DNA of 64,000 bases from the NCBI GenBank assembly GCA_016795505.1, contig JAEUHH010000071.1, positions 1-64,000 of the forward strand, written 5' to 3'. The notes beneath the pieces were generated by a model. It worked only from the letters and a program-made list of their open reading frames with translations, was not told the DNA's origin and did not search any database. This document shows positions 4,205 through 50,510 of the stretch, piece after piece (position 1 is the first letter of the stretch; each line of letters begins with the position of its first letter). Source of the stretch: Verrucomicrobiales bacterium. GTDB taxonomy: Bacteria > Verrucomicrobiota > Verrucomicrobiia > Verrucomicrobiales > DEV007. A program made the translations under genes and the position numbers.

Positions 4205-6644
4205 CCTGCTCGAACAGATCGCGGAAGCCCCGGCCGACCACTACCGCCGGCTCAGAATCTCGTCCCTCGACGGCGACCAACTCGTCGAGCTGAGCCAGCG
4301 CATGAAGCTGTCGCTCAGCCTGGAGGACATGCGGGCGGTGCAAAGCATTTATGCCGACTGGGGGCGCGAACCCACCGATGTGGAACTGGAGGTGATCGCC
4401 CAGACCTGGAGCGAGCACTGCAAACACCGCATTTTTGGCGCAACCATTGAGCACACCATCGACGGCAGGACGGAGACGGTTCACTCGCTTTTCAAAACCT
4501 ACATTTACACCGTCTCGAAGGCGATCATGGCGCGGAAGCCGGACTTCGTGCTGTCGGCCTTTCACGATAATGCCGGCTTCATCAAGCTCGACGACCAACT
4601 CGCCGTCTGCCTGAAGGCCGAGACGCACAATCACCCCAGCGCCATCGAGCCCTACGCGGGCGCGAACACCGGGCTCGGCGGCGTGATCCGCGACATCCTC
4701 GGCGCGGGCAAGGGGGCCAAGCCGATCGCTTCGCTGGACGTGTTCTGTTTCGGAGCGCCCGACACGGCGCCGGAGAACATCAAGGCCGACGACGTCATCC
4801 ATCCGCTCGGCATCCTGCGCGGCGTGGTGCGCGGCGTGCGCGACTACGGCAACCGCATGGGCATCCCCACGGTGTGCGGCGCGATCCAGTTCGACGACGC
4901 CTACATTTACAATCCACTGGTCTATTGCGGCACGGCGGGTGTGATTCCGATCCAGGACATCGACAAGCAGATGACCGCGGGCTTGAAAGTGATCTCCGTC
5001 GGCGCCCGCACCGGCCGCGATGGTCTGCACGGCGCGACTTTTTCGTCGGCGGCGCTCGACACGGAGTCGCACGAGGCGGACCAGCAGGCGGTCCAGATCG
5101 GCAATCCGATCGAGGAGAAGAAAGCGGCCGATTTCGTGCTGGAAGCGAGGGCTCTGGGGCTGATCGAGTTCATCACCGACTGCGGCGCGGGCGGGTACTC
5201 GAGCGCCTGCGGCGAGATGCTCGAGGAGGTCGGCGGCGAGATCATTCTCGACAACGTGAAGCTGAAGGAGGAAGGCCTCGTCAGTTGGGAAATTTTCATC
5301 AGCGAAAGCCAGGAACGCATGGTGCTGGCGGTCAAAGAGGAGTCGCTGCCCGCCTTGCGCGCCTTGGCGGACAAATACGAGACGGAGCTGACCGAGCTCG
5401 GTCACGCCGACGGTTCCGGCATTCTCAAGGTGAAACATCACGGCGAAATGGTGTGCGAGTTGGACTGCACGAAGTTGCACAATGCGCCAGTGCGGCGGAT
5501 GAAAAGCATCTGGGAAACCTGGGAGCGCCGGCATCCTGCCGGCGTTTCGGATGACTCTGACGCCGGCAGGATGCCGGCGCTCCCAGGCTTGCTCCGCAAA
5601 GTCATCTCCGACTTCGCGGTCGTCTCGCGCGAACCGATCATCCGCGAGTACGATCACGAGGTGCAGGGCAACACGGTGCTCAAGCCGCTCGCCGGGGCCT
5701 CGGGCGACGCACCGCAGGATGGCTCGGTGATCCGCATCGATGGCAGCGATCAGCTGATGGCGATGGCGCTGTCCCTGTTGCCCGAGTGGGGCAAGACGGC
5801 GCCCTACGAGATGGGCCTCGCCTGCGTGGACGAGTGCTTCCGCCAGCTCGTCGCGATGGGCGCGAATCCCGACCGCATCGCCATTCTCGACAATTTCTGC
5901 ATGGGCAATCCCAACGACCCGCGGGAACTCGGCGCCCTCGTCGAGACGGTGAAAGGCATCGCGGCGGCGGCGGACGCGTATTCCGCGCCGTTCGTCTCGG
6001 GCAAGGACTCCTTTTACAACTATTTCGAGACGAAGGACGGCCCGGTGTCGATTCCGGTGACGATTCTCGTCAGCGGCATGGGCATCGTGGAGGATGCGGC
6101 GCACGTGGTGACAGGGTCTCTTCGCCGATCCAACAGTGTTGTATCGATCCTGGGCACCACCGGCGGCGATTTTGGCGGCAGCGTGGTGGCGCGGCAGCTC
6201 GGCGGTTTGGCCGCGAGTGTTCCCGGCACCGATCTGGCGGCCAATCTCGCGCTTTACCGTAAATACTACGAAGCGGTGAAAGCCGGCTGGATCCTCGCCA
6301 CCCACGACGTATCGGAGGGTGGTCTGGCCGTGGCTCTGGCGGAGTTTGCCTTCTCCGGAAAGGGCGGTCTCGATTTGTCGCTCGACACGCTGCCGGTCGA
6401 TGGTCAGCCGACGAAGCTGGCCCAGCTTTTTGCCGAGACTCCCGGCCGCCTCGTCATCGAGATCGCGCCCGAGCATCGCGAACAGGTGGCTGCCCATTTC
6501 GCTGGTCTGGCCTACGCCGAACTTGGCACCGCGACCGATGCCCACGCCAATCTGCGGATCGAATACGGCAAGGAGATCCTGCTCAATGAACCGCTTTCCG
6601 AACTGAAATCGCTATGGAAAAACGGCCTCGCGCCCTACTACTGA
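4197..6644 (+). CDS. purL: Phosphoribosylformylglycinamidine synthase, large subunit
   Basis: PurL performs the ATP-dependent amidation of FGAR to FGAM using ammonia supplied by PurQ. Landmarks are QTWSEHCKHR, LKAETHNHPSAIEPY, GANTGLGG and TDCGAGGYSS in the first half, then REYDHEVQGNTVLKP, PFVSGKDSFYN and ATHDVSEGG in the second. At 815 aa it exceeds the usual small PurL of about 740 aa. Part of the excess is a 70-bp perfect inverted repeat (5518-5587) translated in frame between the two halves as a stretch containing HPAGVSDDSDAGRMPALPG. A second repeat copy (6104-6146) encodes TGSLRRSNSVVS where homologues have TMDLKRAGNVLY-type sequence. The ATG at 4197 overlaps the upstream gene. Confidence 0.96.
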   Translation: MPDLLEQIAEAPADHYRRLRISSLDGDQLVELSQRMKLSLSLEDMRAVQSIYADWGREPTDVELEVIAQTWSEHCKHRIFGATIEHTIDGRTETVHSLFKTYIYTVSKAIMARKPDFVLSAFHDNAGFIKLDDQLAVCLKAETHNHPSAIEPYAGANTGLGGVIRDILGAGKGAKPIASLDVFCFGAPDTAPENIKADDVIHPLGILRGVVRGVRDYGNRMGIPTVCGAIQFDDAYIYNPLVYCGTAGVIPIQDIDKQMTAGLKVISVGARTGRDGLHGATFSSAALDTESHEADQQAVQIGNPIEEKKAADFVLEARALGLIEFITDCGAGGYSSACGEMLEEVGGEIILDNVKLKEEGLVSWEIFISESQERMVLAVKEESLPALRALADKYETELTELGHADGSGILKVKHHGEMVCELDCTKLHNAPVRRMKSIWETWERRHPAGVSDDSDAGRMPALPGLLRKVISDFAVVSREPIIREYDHEVQGNTVLKPLAGASGDAPQDGSVIRIDGSDQLMAMALSLLPEWGKTAPYEMGLACVDECFRQLVAMGANPDRIAILDNFCMGNPNDPRELGALVETVKGIAAAADAYSAPFVSGKDSFYNYFETKDGPVSIPVTILVSGMGIVEDAAHVVTGSLRRSNSVVSILGTTGGDFGGSVVARQLGGLAASVPGTDLAANLALYRKYYEAVKAGWILATHDVSEGGLAVALAEFAFSGKGGLDLSLDTLPVDGQPTKLAQLFAETPGRLVIEIAPEHREQVAAHFAGLAYAELGTATDAHANLRIEYGKEILLNEPLSELKSLWKNGLAPYY
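5518..5587. repeat. Perfect 27-bp inverted repeat inserted in frame in purL
   Basis: The left arm (5518-5544) begins CCTGGGAGCGCCGGCATCC and the right arm (5561-5587) is its exact reverse complement. The loop is 16 bases (TTTCGGATGACTCTGA). The whole element is translated in the linker between the two halves of PurL. It resembles REP/REPIN-type elements; that class assignment is inference. Confidence 0.93.
6104..6146. repeat. 22-bp dispersed element, locus 3 (dimer inside purL)
   Basis: On the minus strand this reads CGATACAACACTGTTGGATC then GGCGAAGAGACCCTGTCACC, a diverged dimer with opposed cores. It is translated in purL as TGSLRRSNSVVS. Because homologues align here without extra length, the element may have replaced native sequence rather than added to it, or native sequence may resemble it by chance. 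Confidence 0.65.
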
Positions 6645-7381: not shown

Positions 7382-7503
7382 CAGTCTGTAGCCGCCGTCG
7401 CCAGACGGTGGGCGGAGCCTCACACCGGGACCGCAGGCGTCCCGCCTGCGTCGCATGGCTCGGCCATTGCTCCGGGGCGGGCGAGACGCCCGCGGTCCCG
7501 GTG
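7382..7503. repeat. Long imperfect inverted repeat between purQ and purM
   Basis: Arms at 7423-7448 (starting CACCGGGACCGCAGGCGTC) and 7478-7503 (ending GACGCCCGCGGTCCCGGTG) are reverse complements apart from a few positions. A further short motif, GCCGTCGCCAGACGGTGGGC, precedes them. The element is similar in design to the purL palindrome but different in sequence. It fills most of the gap between purQ and purM and would fold into a strong hairpin in the operon transcript. Confidence 0.8.
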
Positions 7504-15211: not shown

Positions 15212-17463
<2,252 letters not shown>

Positions 17464-18120
17464 TCTCTACGCTGGAGAGACTAGCGGAAAGCGGGGGAGC
17501 GTCAAGGGCGGCTGCCTGCCGACGGGGCGAGCGGGACAAAAATGTCGCTGTGTGCGATTCCGACGCGGTCTCTGCATCGGGAGGCATCTGAGTCGCAAGA
17601 AAACAGTAGCTCGGGCTTTAACCCGAATGGCGTCGGTCCCGCAAGTCCCCATCCCGTCTCATGTTGAAACGCGGAGCGGTTCTCTATGAAGGGCCAGGGG
17701 GCGGCACGCGCCCGGTTATCCGACGAGCCCGCGGCCACTCCGGATGCGGTTGTCCCATGCGGCAAAGGCGATGCGGGACGGCATCCCCATTGGACAACCC
17801 CATCCGGGGTTGCTGCGATGAGATGCGGATGACCCGGAGTTTCACTCCGGGCTATTCATGGAGCATCCCTCCGGGATGCCGGATGAGGCGTTTTCGCTTT
17901 CGCGGCATTTGTTTCCATTCGCGTCATTCGCGTCATTCGTTTCCATTCGCGTTAGACTATTCCAGAGAGCCCAAGATCTCCTAGCGCCCCTGCCGGGGCG
18001 CAGAAGTATTGGGGGGTAGGCTTCCGGGGGTTCCCCTCGTTTCACTCGGTCCACACCCGGCTAATATCCGTCGTCCCTCCGGGACGCAGGACAGACAAAC
18101 GCCTCTGGCCTGTTCGCTCG

Positions 18121-18256: not shown

Positions 18257-18530
18257 TTGCTGACCGCCGTCCCGCGACCATCAACTGCCGGAAAAGAGCG
18301 CCAACGGCGCGTCCGCATGCCAGCCCAGAGCAACGCTCTGGGTGTCCGCCCACCTCTCTATGACACGCCCTGAAGGGGCGTCGCATCCTTCCGCCTGACC
18401 GGCGTCGCAACGGCCGGTGAATGCGACGCCCTTTCAGGGCGCTTCTCATGCTCTGCCCCCTGTTCCCAGAGCGTTGCTCTGGGCTGGTATGCGACGGGCT
18501 TTCAGCCCGTTGTCCTGCGGAACAGGCTCC

Positions 18531-44265: not shown

Positions 44266-44380
44266 CCAAGCCAGAGGGGCCACCAGCAGATTCGGGTCAG
44301 GTTTACCCCGCATAGGATGAAAAAGGCCCACGGAAGGCACGGAATTTCACGGAAATTGCGGCGGGGGCTGGGCAGGGATT

Positions 44381-44410
44381 TCCAGCAGATTCAGGGAGGC
44401 CAGCAGATTT
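44381..44410. repeat. CAGCAGATT palindrome, inverted copy
   Basis: Reads TCCAGCAGATTCAGGGAGGC then CAGCAGATT. It is the reverse complement of the motif at 13857-13887, 44590-44622 and 44718-44750. Confidence 0.85.
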
Positions 44411-44530
44411 TTTTGGGATGGGTAAGCCTGAAAGCTGAAAGGGAAGGCCCACGGAAAGGCACGGAAAAAGAGCCGATGAAACTTTCCCGAAAAGGCGAGC
44501 CTCAAAAAGCCCTTCAAAACCTCCCCCATC

Positions 44531-44750
44531 CGTGAAATTCCGCGCCTTCCGTGGGCCCATCTCCACCTTTCCAGCCATAAGCCAGACCCGAATCTGCTGG
44601 CCTCCCTGAATCTGCTGGAGATCCCCAAACAGCCCCGTCCAGTGCCGGCCATAGCTTCCGTGAAATTCCGTGCCTTCCGTGGGCCCATCTCCACCTTGCC
44701 AGCGGCAAACCAGACCCGAATCTGCTGGCCTCCCTGAATCTGCTGGAGAT
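44531..44750. repeat. 128-bp tandem duplication ending in CAGCAGATT palindromes
   Basis: Copy 1 (44531-44622) and copy 2 (44659-44750) both run CGTGAAATTCCG, CCTTCCGTGGGCCCATCTCC, CAGACCCGAATCTGCTGGCC and TCCCTGAATCTGCTGGAGAT. The period is 128 bases. Each copy ends in the same palindromic motif. Confidence 0.88.
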
Positions 44751-44862
44751 CCTCCCAGTTCGTTCCGTCGTCCCAGCGTAAGATGCGCATCAAGAGTGAG
44801 TTAAGCGCCCGCCTGCCAGTCTGGAACACCCCGATGCACGTCGTGCAGAGGGCCGACCAGAC

Positions 44863-45077
44863 CTCACTAACCCCTCGGTACGGCGTGCAGAGGGGCGTTT
44901 GGATTCTGATCGGCCCTCTGCACGCCGTGCGGAGGGGCGTTTGGATTCCGATCGCCCCTCTGCACGCCATACAGAGGGGCGTTTGGGTTTTGATCGGCCC
45001 TCTGCACGCCATGCAGAGGGGTGTTTGGATTCTGATCGGCCCTCTGCACGCCGTACCGAGGGGTTAGTGAGGCCTGG
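44863..45077. repeat. Four-unit 42-bp hairpin array inside a large inverted repeat
   Basis: Four tandem 42-bp units (44885-45052) each read GTGCAGAGGGGCGTTTGG, then ATTCTGATCGG, then CCCTCTGCACGCC with small changes, so each folds on its own. The array is enclosed by CTCACTAACCCCTCGGTACG on the left and CGTACCGAGGGGTTAGTGAG on the right, which pair. Changes in the units often keep pairing. Confidence 0.92.
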
Positions 45078-45418
45078 TCGCCCCAATGTACGGCGTGCAG
45101 AGGGGCAGGTGAGGCGCCCGGGACCCATGGGCCGATCGTCGGCGGGGCGGGGGAGCGTTGTCTCCCTCGAAATCGTCCCGGCGAGGGGGAACGTCTCTTG
45201 CAGTCCATCTTAAGGTGCCTAGCCAATGCCGGCGGTGAGCGGCTGCAGACCCAAGCGCCCGGTAGGTCGTCCGGTCCGTGATATCAACCAAGTCACGGAC
45301 CCGCCAGAATCCGGTAGGTCATCGACCGGATAGACGCACCCGGGCCGAAAATTCCTTGGCAGCACAAGGCTCCGCCGCTACTCTCGGCCAGGATAGCTCG
45401 ACAGCCGAAGACACCTCA

Positions 45419-45895
45419 ATGAACGAATGGCGACCGCTGATCAACGAATACTACAAGCTCGCCCACACCGATGATCCGAATTCTCTAGAGTTAGGGAAGC
45501 CTGCGACCACCGAAGAACTTGATTCACTCGACAAGGAACTGGGATTCAAGATGCCTCCCGAGTTTCGGAGCTTCTATGGCGAGTTCAACGGTTTCGGAAC
45601 CAAGCGAGACGATGAGACCGATTGGTTCTTCGTCCCCATTTCGGCGATTCCGAACCTTACTGCGGTTATCCGGGATTGGTTCAAGGAGACGCATCCTGAG
45701 ATCGCGAGACGATACGTCGCAGTCGTCGATTGGGGCAACGGAGATTCGAGCGGTTACCTTTTCTCGGAGGCTGGTGATCCGCTCGAAGGATTCTTCATTT
45801 TTGAGCACGAGAGCTACGAGTTCGAGGCTGATCAGGATTGGCGGGAATTCATCATTCCTGTAAACTCGTCTATCCGCAACTTCCTCACCGAATAA
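45419..45895 (+). CDS. SMI1/KNR4-family protein
   Basis: The 158-aa protein shows the SMI1/KNR4 fold pattern: ATTEELDSLDKELGFKMPPE, FRSFYGEFNGFGTKRDDETD, then WFFVPISAIPNL, VDWGNGDSSGYLFSEAG and FEHESYEFEADQDWREFI. Bacterial members are often immunity proteins against polymorphic toxins, but no toxin gene is beside it. Base composition is less GC-rich than the window average. The start MNEWRPLINEYY was chosen by the fold pattern; the frame upstream is repeat sequence. Confidence 0.82.
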   Translation: MNEWRPLINEYYKLAHTDDPNSLELGKPATTEELDSLDKELGFKMPPEFRSFYGEFNGFGTKRDDETDWFFVPISAIPNLTAVIRDWFKETHPEIARRYVAVVDWGNGDSSGYLFSEAGDPLEGFFIFEHESYEFEADQDWREFIIPVNSSIRNFLTE

Positions 45896-50465: not shown

Positions 50466-50510
50466 CGATGCAACAGGGTTGGATCGGCGATGCAACAGGG
50501 TCTGATCGGA
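50466..50510. repeat. 22-bp dispersed element, locus 6 (best-preserved dimer)
   Basis: Two near-identical units: CGATGCAACAGGGTTGGATC-GG and CGATGCAACAGGGTCTGATC-GGA. This is the cleanest view of the unit. It lies upstream of the second PVC dehydrogenase, in frame with its possible N-terminal extension, where the minus strand translates as [15 protein letters not shown]. Confidence 0.92.

Follow-up and report, generated by a model that had tools for sequence, protein, structure and literature searches.

A palindromic 42-bp tandem array beside a broken leader gene and its relation to helically phased repeats in Verrucomicrobiota

In plasmid iteron arrays, direct repeats of about 20-22 bp follow one another in helical phase beside rep genes, and in type III toxin-antitoxin (ToxIN-like) systems a tandem repeat array is found just upstream of the gene. 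Bacterial tandem repeats of constant size and variable sequence have been described as an enigmatic class, in which several families per genome share one length, have unrelated sequences and are non-coding (Subirana and Messeguer, PMC8161180). In that report, these repeats are mainly from Bacillus, with units of 52 and 20-21 nt, the 20-21 nt class being ascribed to two helical turns, and a protein scaffold or a small RNA has been proposed as their role (PMC8161180); a related survey has also been published (PMC6749651). REP/BIME elements are short clustered palindromes able to form larger hairpins (PMC3733652).

The window, i.e. the whole stretch of 64,000 nucleotides that was analyzed, belongs to a genome of 6.55 Mb (120 contigs) and contains a tandem array of 42-bp self-complementary units, as confirmed by TRF. 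While the original prediction counted four of these units, there are seven, so that the element extends over about 44829-45105. The units start at positions 44830, 44872, 44914, 44956, 44998, 45040 and 45081, with a spacing of 42, 42, 42, 42, 42 and 41 bp. Each has a self-complementary core of 24 nt, CCCTCTGCACGCC(A/G)TGCAGAGGGG, and the cores are set apart by near-identical separators of 18 nt. The two outermost separators are unlike the inner ones, yet mutually complementary, which accounts for the pairing outer arms noticed in the original prediction. The features of the array are as follows:

44829-45105, no strand assigned: entire array, folding as a hairpin and made of seven palindromic units; its bounds agree with the ends of the region homologous to C24 (see below)
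44872-45063, no strand assigned: best-conserved core of the tandem array (TRF: period 42, 4.6 copies, 86% match)
44863-44882, + strand: left outer arm, CTCACTAACCCCTCGGTACG, with many differences from the C24 copy and pairing retained
45052-45071, + strand: right outer arm, CGTACCGAGGGGTTAGTGAG, complementary to the left one

Allowing up to three mismatches, 11 occurrences of the palindrome were counted over the window, all of them inside the array, and none in shuffled sequences. As predicted, the array folds as a whole. As RNA, its + strand folds into a single hairpin at -227 kcal/mol (z -18.5; equalled by 0/200 shuffles) and the opposite strand folds at -203 kcal/mol; as DNA, the array folds at -120 kcal/mol (z -16.4). 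CRISPR was rejected, the segments between palindromes being near-identical and not unique spacers. The matches listed by an Rfam scan of the window were only tRNA and a TPP riboswitch (17353-17468, - strand), the array having no family match. Just right of the array lies a gene of the SMI1/KNR4 (SUKH) family (45419-45895, + strand). The window also contains other long inverted repeats, at 5515-5590, 7423-7503 and 18314-18493, the last of which is nested, one hairpin within another; all three resemble interspersed elements of other contigs (L040, L044).

The original prediction had proposed a search for the unit elsewhere, which led to two additional loci within this genome. Designating the window copy C77, the further copies C54 and C24 are 97% and 81% identical, respectively. 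To the left, C77 and C54 remain homologous for about 60 bp more, reaching into the start of a gene. The homology of C24 to the other copies stops at the outermost palindromes, and orientation relative to genes is not the same among the three copies. When the array sequence was searched in 57 relatives and 75 family members, only short chance-like matches were obtained, and the exact pattern of the unit was not present in genome_contigs or viral_contigs. With a covariance model built from the three copies, no homologue was established elsewhere, and two other genomes gave weaker matches; the strongest outside match of the model, L190 from another genus of the family, was rejected as an unrelated 43-bp array. 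The latter (L190, 70-501) has ten copies of its unit near a contig end, with a sequence unlike that of the window array.

Like REP/BIME elements, the window array is made of clustered palindromes able to form a larger hairpin, in a genome with Y1 transposase genes. Unlike them, it has three loci only, a strict 42-bp tandem spacing and no Y1 gene nearby (PF01797 has 17 matches in the genome, none on C77, C54 or C24). By eye, the GTAG/CGTC stem-foot tag was not noticed in the unit.

The C54 array is located upstream of an intact 381-aa gene on the minus strand, of which the window retains only the beginning. The features on this side of the array are:

44767-44828, no strand assigned: flank common to the C54 copy and without counterpart in C24, comprising the gene start and 5' region
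44731-44790, - strand: what is left of the beginning of the partner gene, MRILRWDDGTNWED, with a match to the leader gene of C54
44529-44752, no strand assigned: unrelated interspersed repeat in two copies, where the gene body is missing
44283-44752, both orientations: interspersed repeats CCCACGGAAGGCACGGAA / CCAGCAGATTC, occupying the place of the lost gene body

After about 14 leader codons, the frame of the remnant enters other interspersed repeats, and no intact partner gene is present at the window copy. C24 is an array copy without any leader gene. The product of these leader genes has a conserved N-terminal leader of ~50 aa (MKPLHWDAINPFTG-PFTWDDPNLRWGDPSYYLEPGDPGFVPY), a basic linker and a remainder which varies between a DUF4469 type, helical types with an FN3-like C-terminus, and others. 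A leader profile search identified five genes in the window's genome, three matches in one genome of the same genus and, within the order but in another family, four matches in a single genome. In a sixth gene of the window's genome, C50, the leader has diverged, and a 21-bp array lies upstream of the gene. No clear DNA-binding domain was found in the leader-gene proteins, the match of the DUF4469 subtype to HU being marginal (E 0.11).

Unlike plasmid iterons, these arrays are associated with proteins that are not Rep-like, on chromosomal contigs and without plasmid match. A plasmid or phage origin was rejected: array DNA matched neither plasmids nor phages, the leader family was not found in viral contigs, and one representative was not found in plasmids. 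Likewise, type III toxin-antitoxin systems differ by their unit lengths and by the downstream array of the DUF4469 subtype, and this assignment was rejected since PADLOC models did not match five representative leader-gene proteins and Pfam toxin families did not match three from the window's genome, so that no endoribonuclease of the ToxN/CptN/TenpN type was recognised among them.

The association between leader genes and phased arrays extends well beyond the window. In its genome, all five leader genes (C51 among them) adjoin a phased array, and among 32 leader-gene loci from other assemblies, 23 have one at most 400 bp away. By their titles, these 32 loci come from lineages of Verrucomicrobiota, apart from a single one that is just called 'uncultured bacterium'; among those that lack a phased array, contig ends truncate several, and the unit of L202 measures 89 bp. 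In intact modules, the array is some 20-200 bp from the leader gene. Array density reaches 1.26/kb near leader genes versus 0.012/kb in farther flanks, an excess of about 100-fold over a control that comprises only a few kb per locus.

Period varies with position and gene type. Upstream of genes of non-DUF4469 types, the mean autocorrelation peaks only at lags of 42, 84, 21 and 63 (z 8-15), and downstream of DUF4469 types only at 22, 44, 66 and 88 (z 8-15). Three loci without TRF array (L192, L194 and L207) nevertheless have 42 as their best upstream lag; an exception to the rule is L220, a non-DUF4469 type with a downstream array. In the window's genome, as sampled over 1.54 Mb biased to contig starts, repeat families of at least 3.5 copies have periods of 21 (13 families), 22 (4), 41 (4) and 42 bp (3) and hardly any others. 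Most of the phased arrays of this genome are not adjacent to any recognised leader gene, and arrays are far fewer in the sampled relatives of the genus.

Sequence, by contrast with length, is loosely constrained. Between loci, arrays are mostly unrelated and are similar only where the proteins are close (L199/L204, L221/L222, L195/L211); those of L193 and L204 are unrelated despite 90% protein identity, which supports that length is conserved over sequence. Self-complementarity exceeds that of shuffled units (p<0.05) in only 9 of 29 arrays, and strong self-complementarity was thus rejected as a rule of the class. Fixed length, free sequence and non-coding arrays are shared with the constant-size repeats of PMC8161180. 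In contrast to these, for which no gene partner is known to have been reported, the present units are of 21, 22 and 41-43 bp, occur in Verrucomicrobiota, and have a tie to leader genes and a position rule. In the open-access literature searched, we found no mention of DUF4469 and no paper that connects arrays of this kind with a gene family. The gene partner, the position rule and the 42-bp class seem to be unreported so far.

Several other short-period arrays were observed. One family of 22-bp units, whose consensus resembles CCGATCAAACCCGGTTCGATCG, accounts for at least 58 short arrays in the 1.54 Mb sample of the window's genome, all tandem, for example at 50466-50509 in the window and at 4711-4788 in L010. 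Arrays of 22 bp with palindromic ACCCTA..TAGGGT cores, in about 10-13 copies, are present in L040 (953-1242), L041 (7489-7704) and L080 (9358-9704). In L070, a 21-bp array (778-986) is directly upstream of a collagen-like gene at 1067 (MPFDPSLPAPNSP...), which belongs to a different gene family; in L090, a relative is located downstream of the leader gene C50.

Since 21 and 42 are multiples of three and frames are often open through the array, the repeats might encode an N-terminal extension to which each unit adds 7 or 14 residues. The open frames had been pointed out in the original prediction, which considered coding unsupported; they are indeed open, yet this is no evidence of coding, the frame of the gene being open in 13 of 23 gene-linked arrays (the C54 copy included) and the other two in 16 each. 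In addition, differences between units show no excess at third codon positions (mismatch rates of 0.190, 0.166 and 0.135 at positions 1, 2 and 3), and related arrays have units of 22, 41 or 43 bp. These reading-frame and codon-position tests, whose outcome is unaffected by gene starts off by a base or some codons in C48, L219, L221 and L222, led us to reject a coding repeat, which is hardly tenable. Also unlikely, though less so, is a functionless by-product, in which slippage, or some other form of duplication that prefers two turns, would generate the arrays and these would persist neutrally near the leader genes. The first duplication may already favor such a length, 21 bp being by far the commonest period even when two-copy families are included (41 of 126 families); however, this would explain neither the 100-fold excess beside one gene family nor the upstream/downstream rule and the split between 21/42 and 22/44/66 bp.

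Two further explanations rely on the pairing kept between copies. In a fixed hairpin register, 8-9 pairs differ on both sides between C77/C54 and C24 and are still Watson-Crick. C24 folds at -199 kcal/mol, compared with -132 +/- 9 kcal/mol when the same substitutions are placed randomly on C77; as none of 300 random placements reaches the observed fold, pairing has been preserved beyond chance, in agreement with the prediction that unit changes often preserve it. Such preservation would suit a long-hairpin RNA transcribed from the + strand, antisense to the partner gene, and selected for its pairing. Likewise, the + strand folds more strongly than the - strand in all three copies, and 20 one-sided changes between C77 and C24 gain or lose a G.U pair on the + strand against 3 giving an A.C mismatch, although this count is not independent because units repeat and the register is near symmetric. 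This RNA is nonetheless an unlikely explanation: no promoter- or terminator-like site was found at the array, which has no Rfam match, its orientation to genes varies among copies, and no sense/antisense bias is seen across 29 related arrays. Nearly all double compensatory changes fall within one ~20-nt stretch of both arms and could result from a single hairpin-templated correction. They are thus also consistent with a palindromic DNA repeat that disperses in the manner of a BIME or MITE, the hairpin being a mobile or template-switching unit whose arms are kept alike by quasi-palindrome correction, as are the limits of C24 homology, the missing leader gene of C24 and the Y1 transposase genes of the genome. 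Yet pairing is kept outside the arm segment too (-206 versus -169 +/- 9 kcal/mol for random placement, 0/300), only three copies exist, on contigs without a Y1 gene, and target duplication was not seen. As it also leaves the class-wide periods and the gene association unexplained, we consider a dispersing repeat rather improbable as the whole explanation.

A cruciform, a structured RNA or a protein landing site had originally been envisaged. The kept pairing and the G.U excess speak for RNA, but self-complementarity is no class rule and no promoter-like site was found; a protein landing site agrees best with the 21/42-bp phasing seen across the class. On balance, and with moderate confidence, we favor that the window array is a non-coding DNA scaffold whose units each span two or four helical turns and which is probably occupied by protein, left by a broken gene-array module. 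Because 21 and 42 bp correspond to two and four turns of B-DNA, each unit would show the same duplex face to a protein, and a cooperative protein scaffold would be the simplest reading of the phasing. A candidate protein, perhaps the cognate gene product or a nucleoid protein, may bind the array cooperatively and control or organise the locus, the palindromic units of the window being potentially suited to symmetric dimers. However, array sequences evolve faster than the proteins, which is hard to reconcile with the cognate product recognising a specific sequence. The window array could also be extruded as a hairpin, which may aid its spread and keep its arms complementary, and the window copy may represent a decapitated module, whose gene was lost and whose dispersing hairpin array was left behind.

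More tentatively, leader genes and phased arrays may possibly constitute one module, in which the protein or a common partner would assemble every two or four turns by spacing over sequence, i.e. a new self-addressed DNA scaffold in Verrucomicrobiota. The family would define an unnamed group of proteins with one leader and several unrelated-looking remainders. With a gene family as marker, a position rule and a division of lengths into 21/42 and 22/44/66 bp, repeats of fixed length and free sequence become testable, and the module gives a lead on this known, unexplained class of bacterial repeats.
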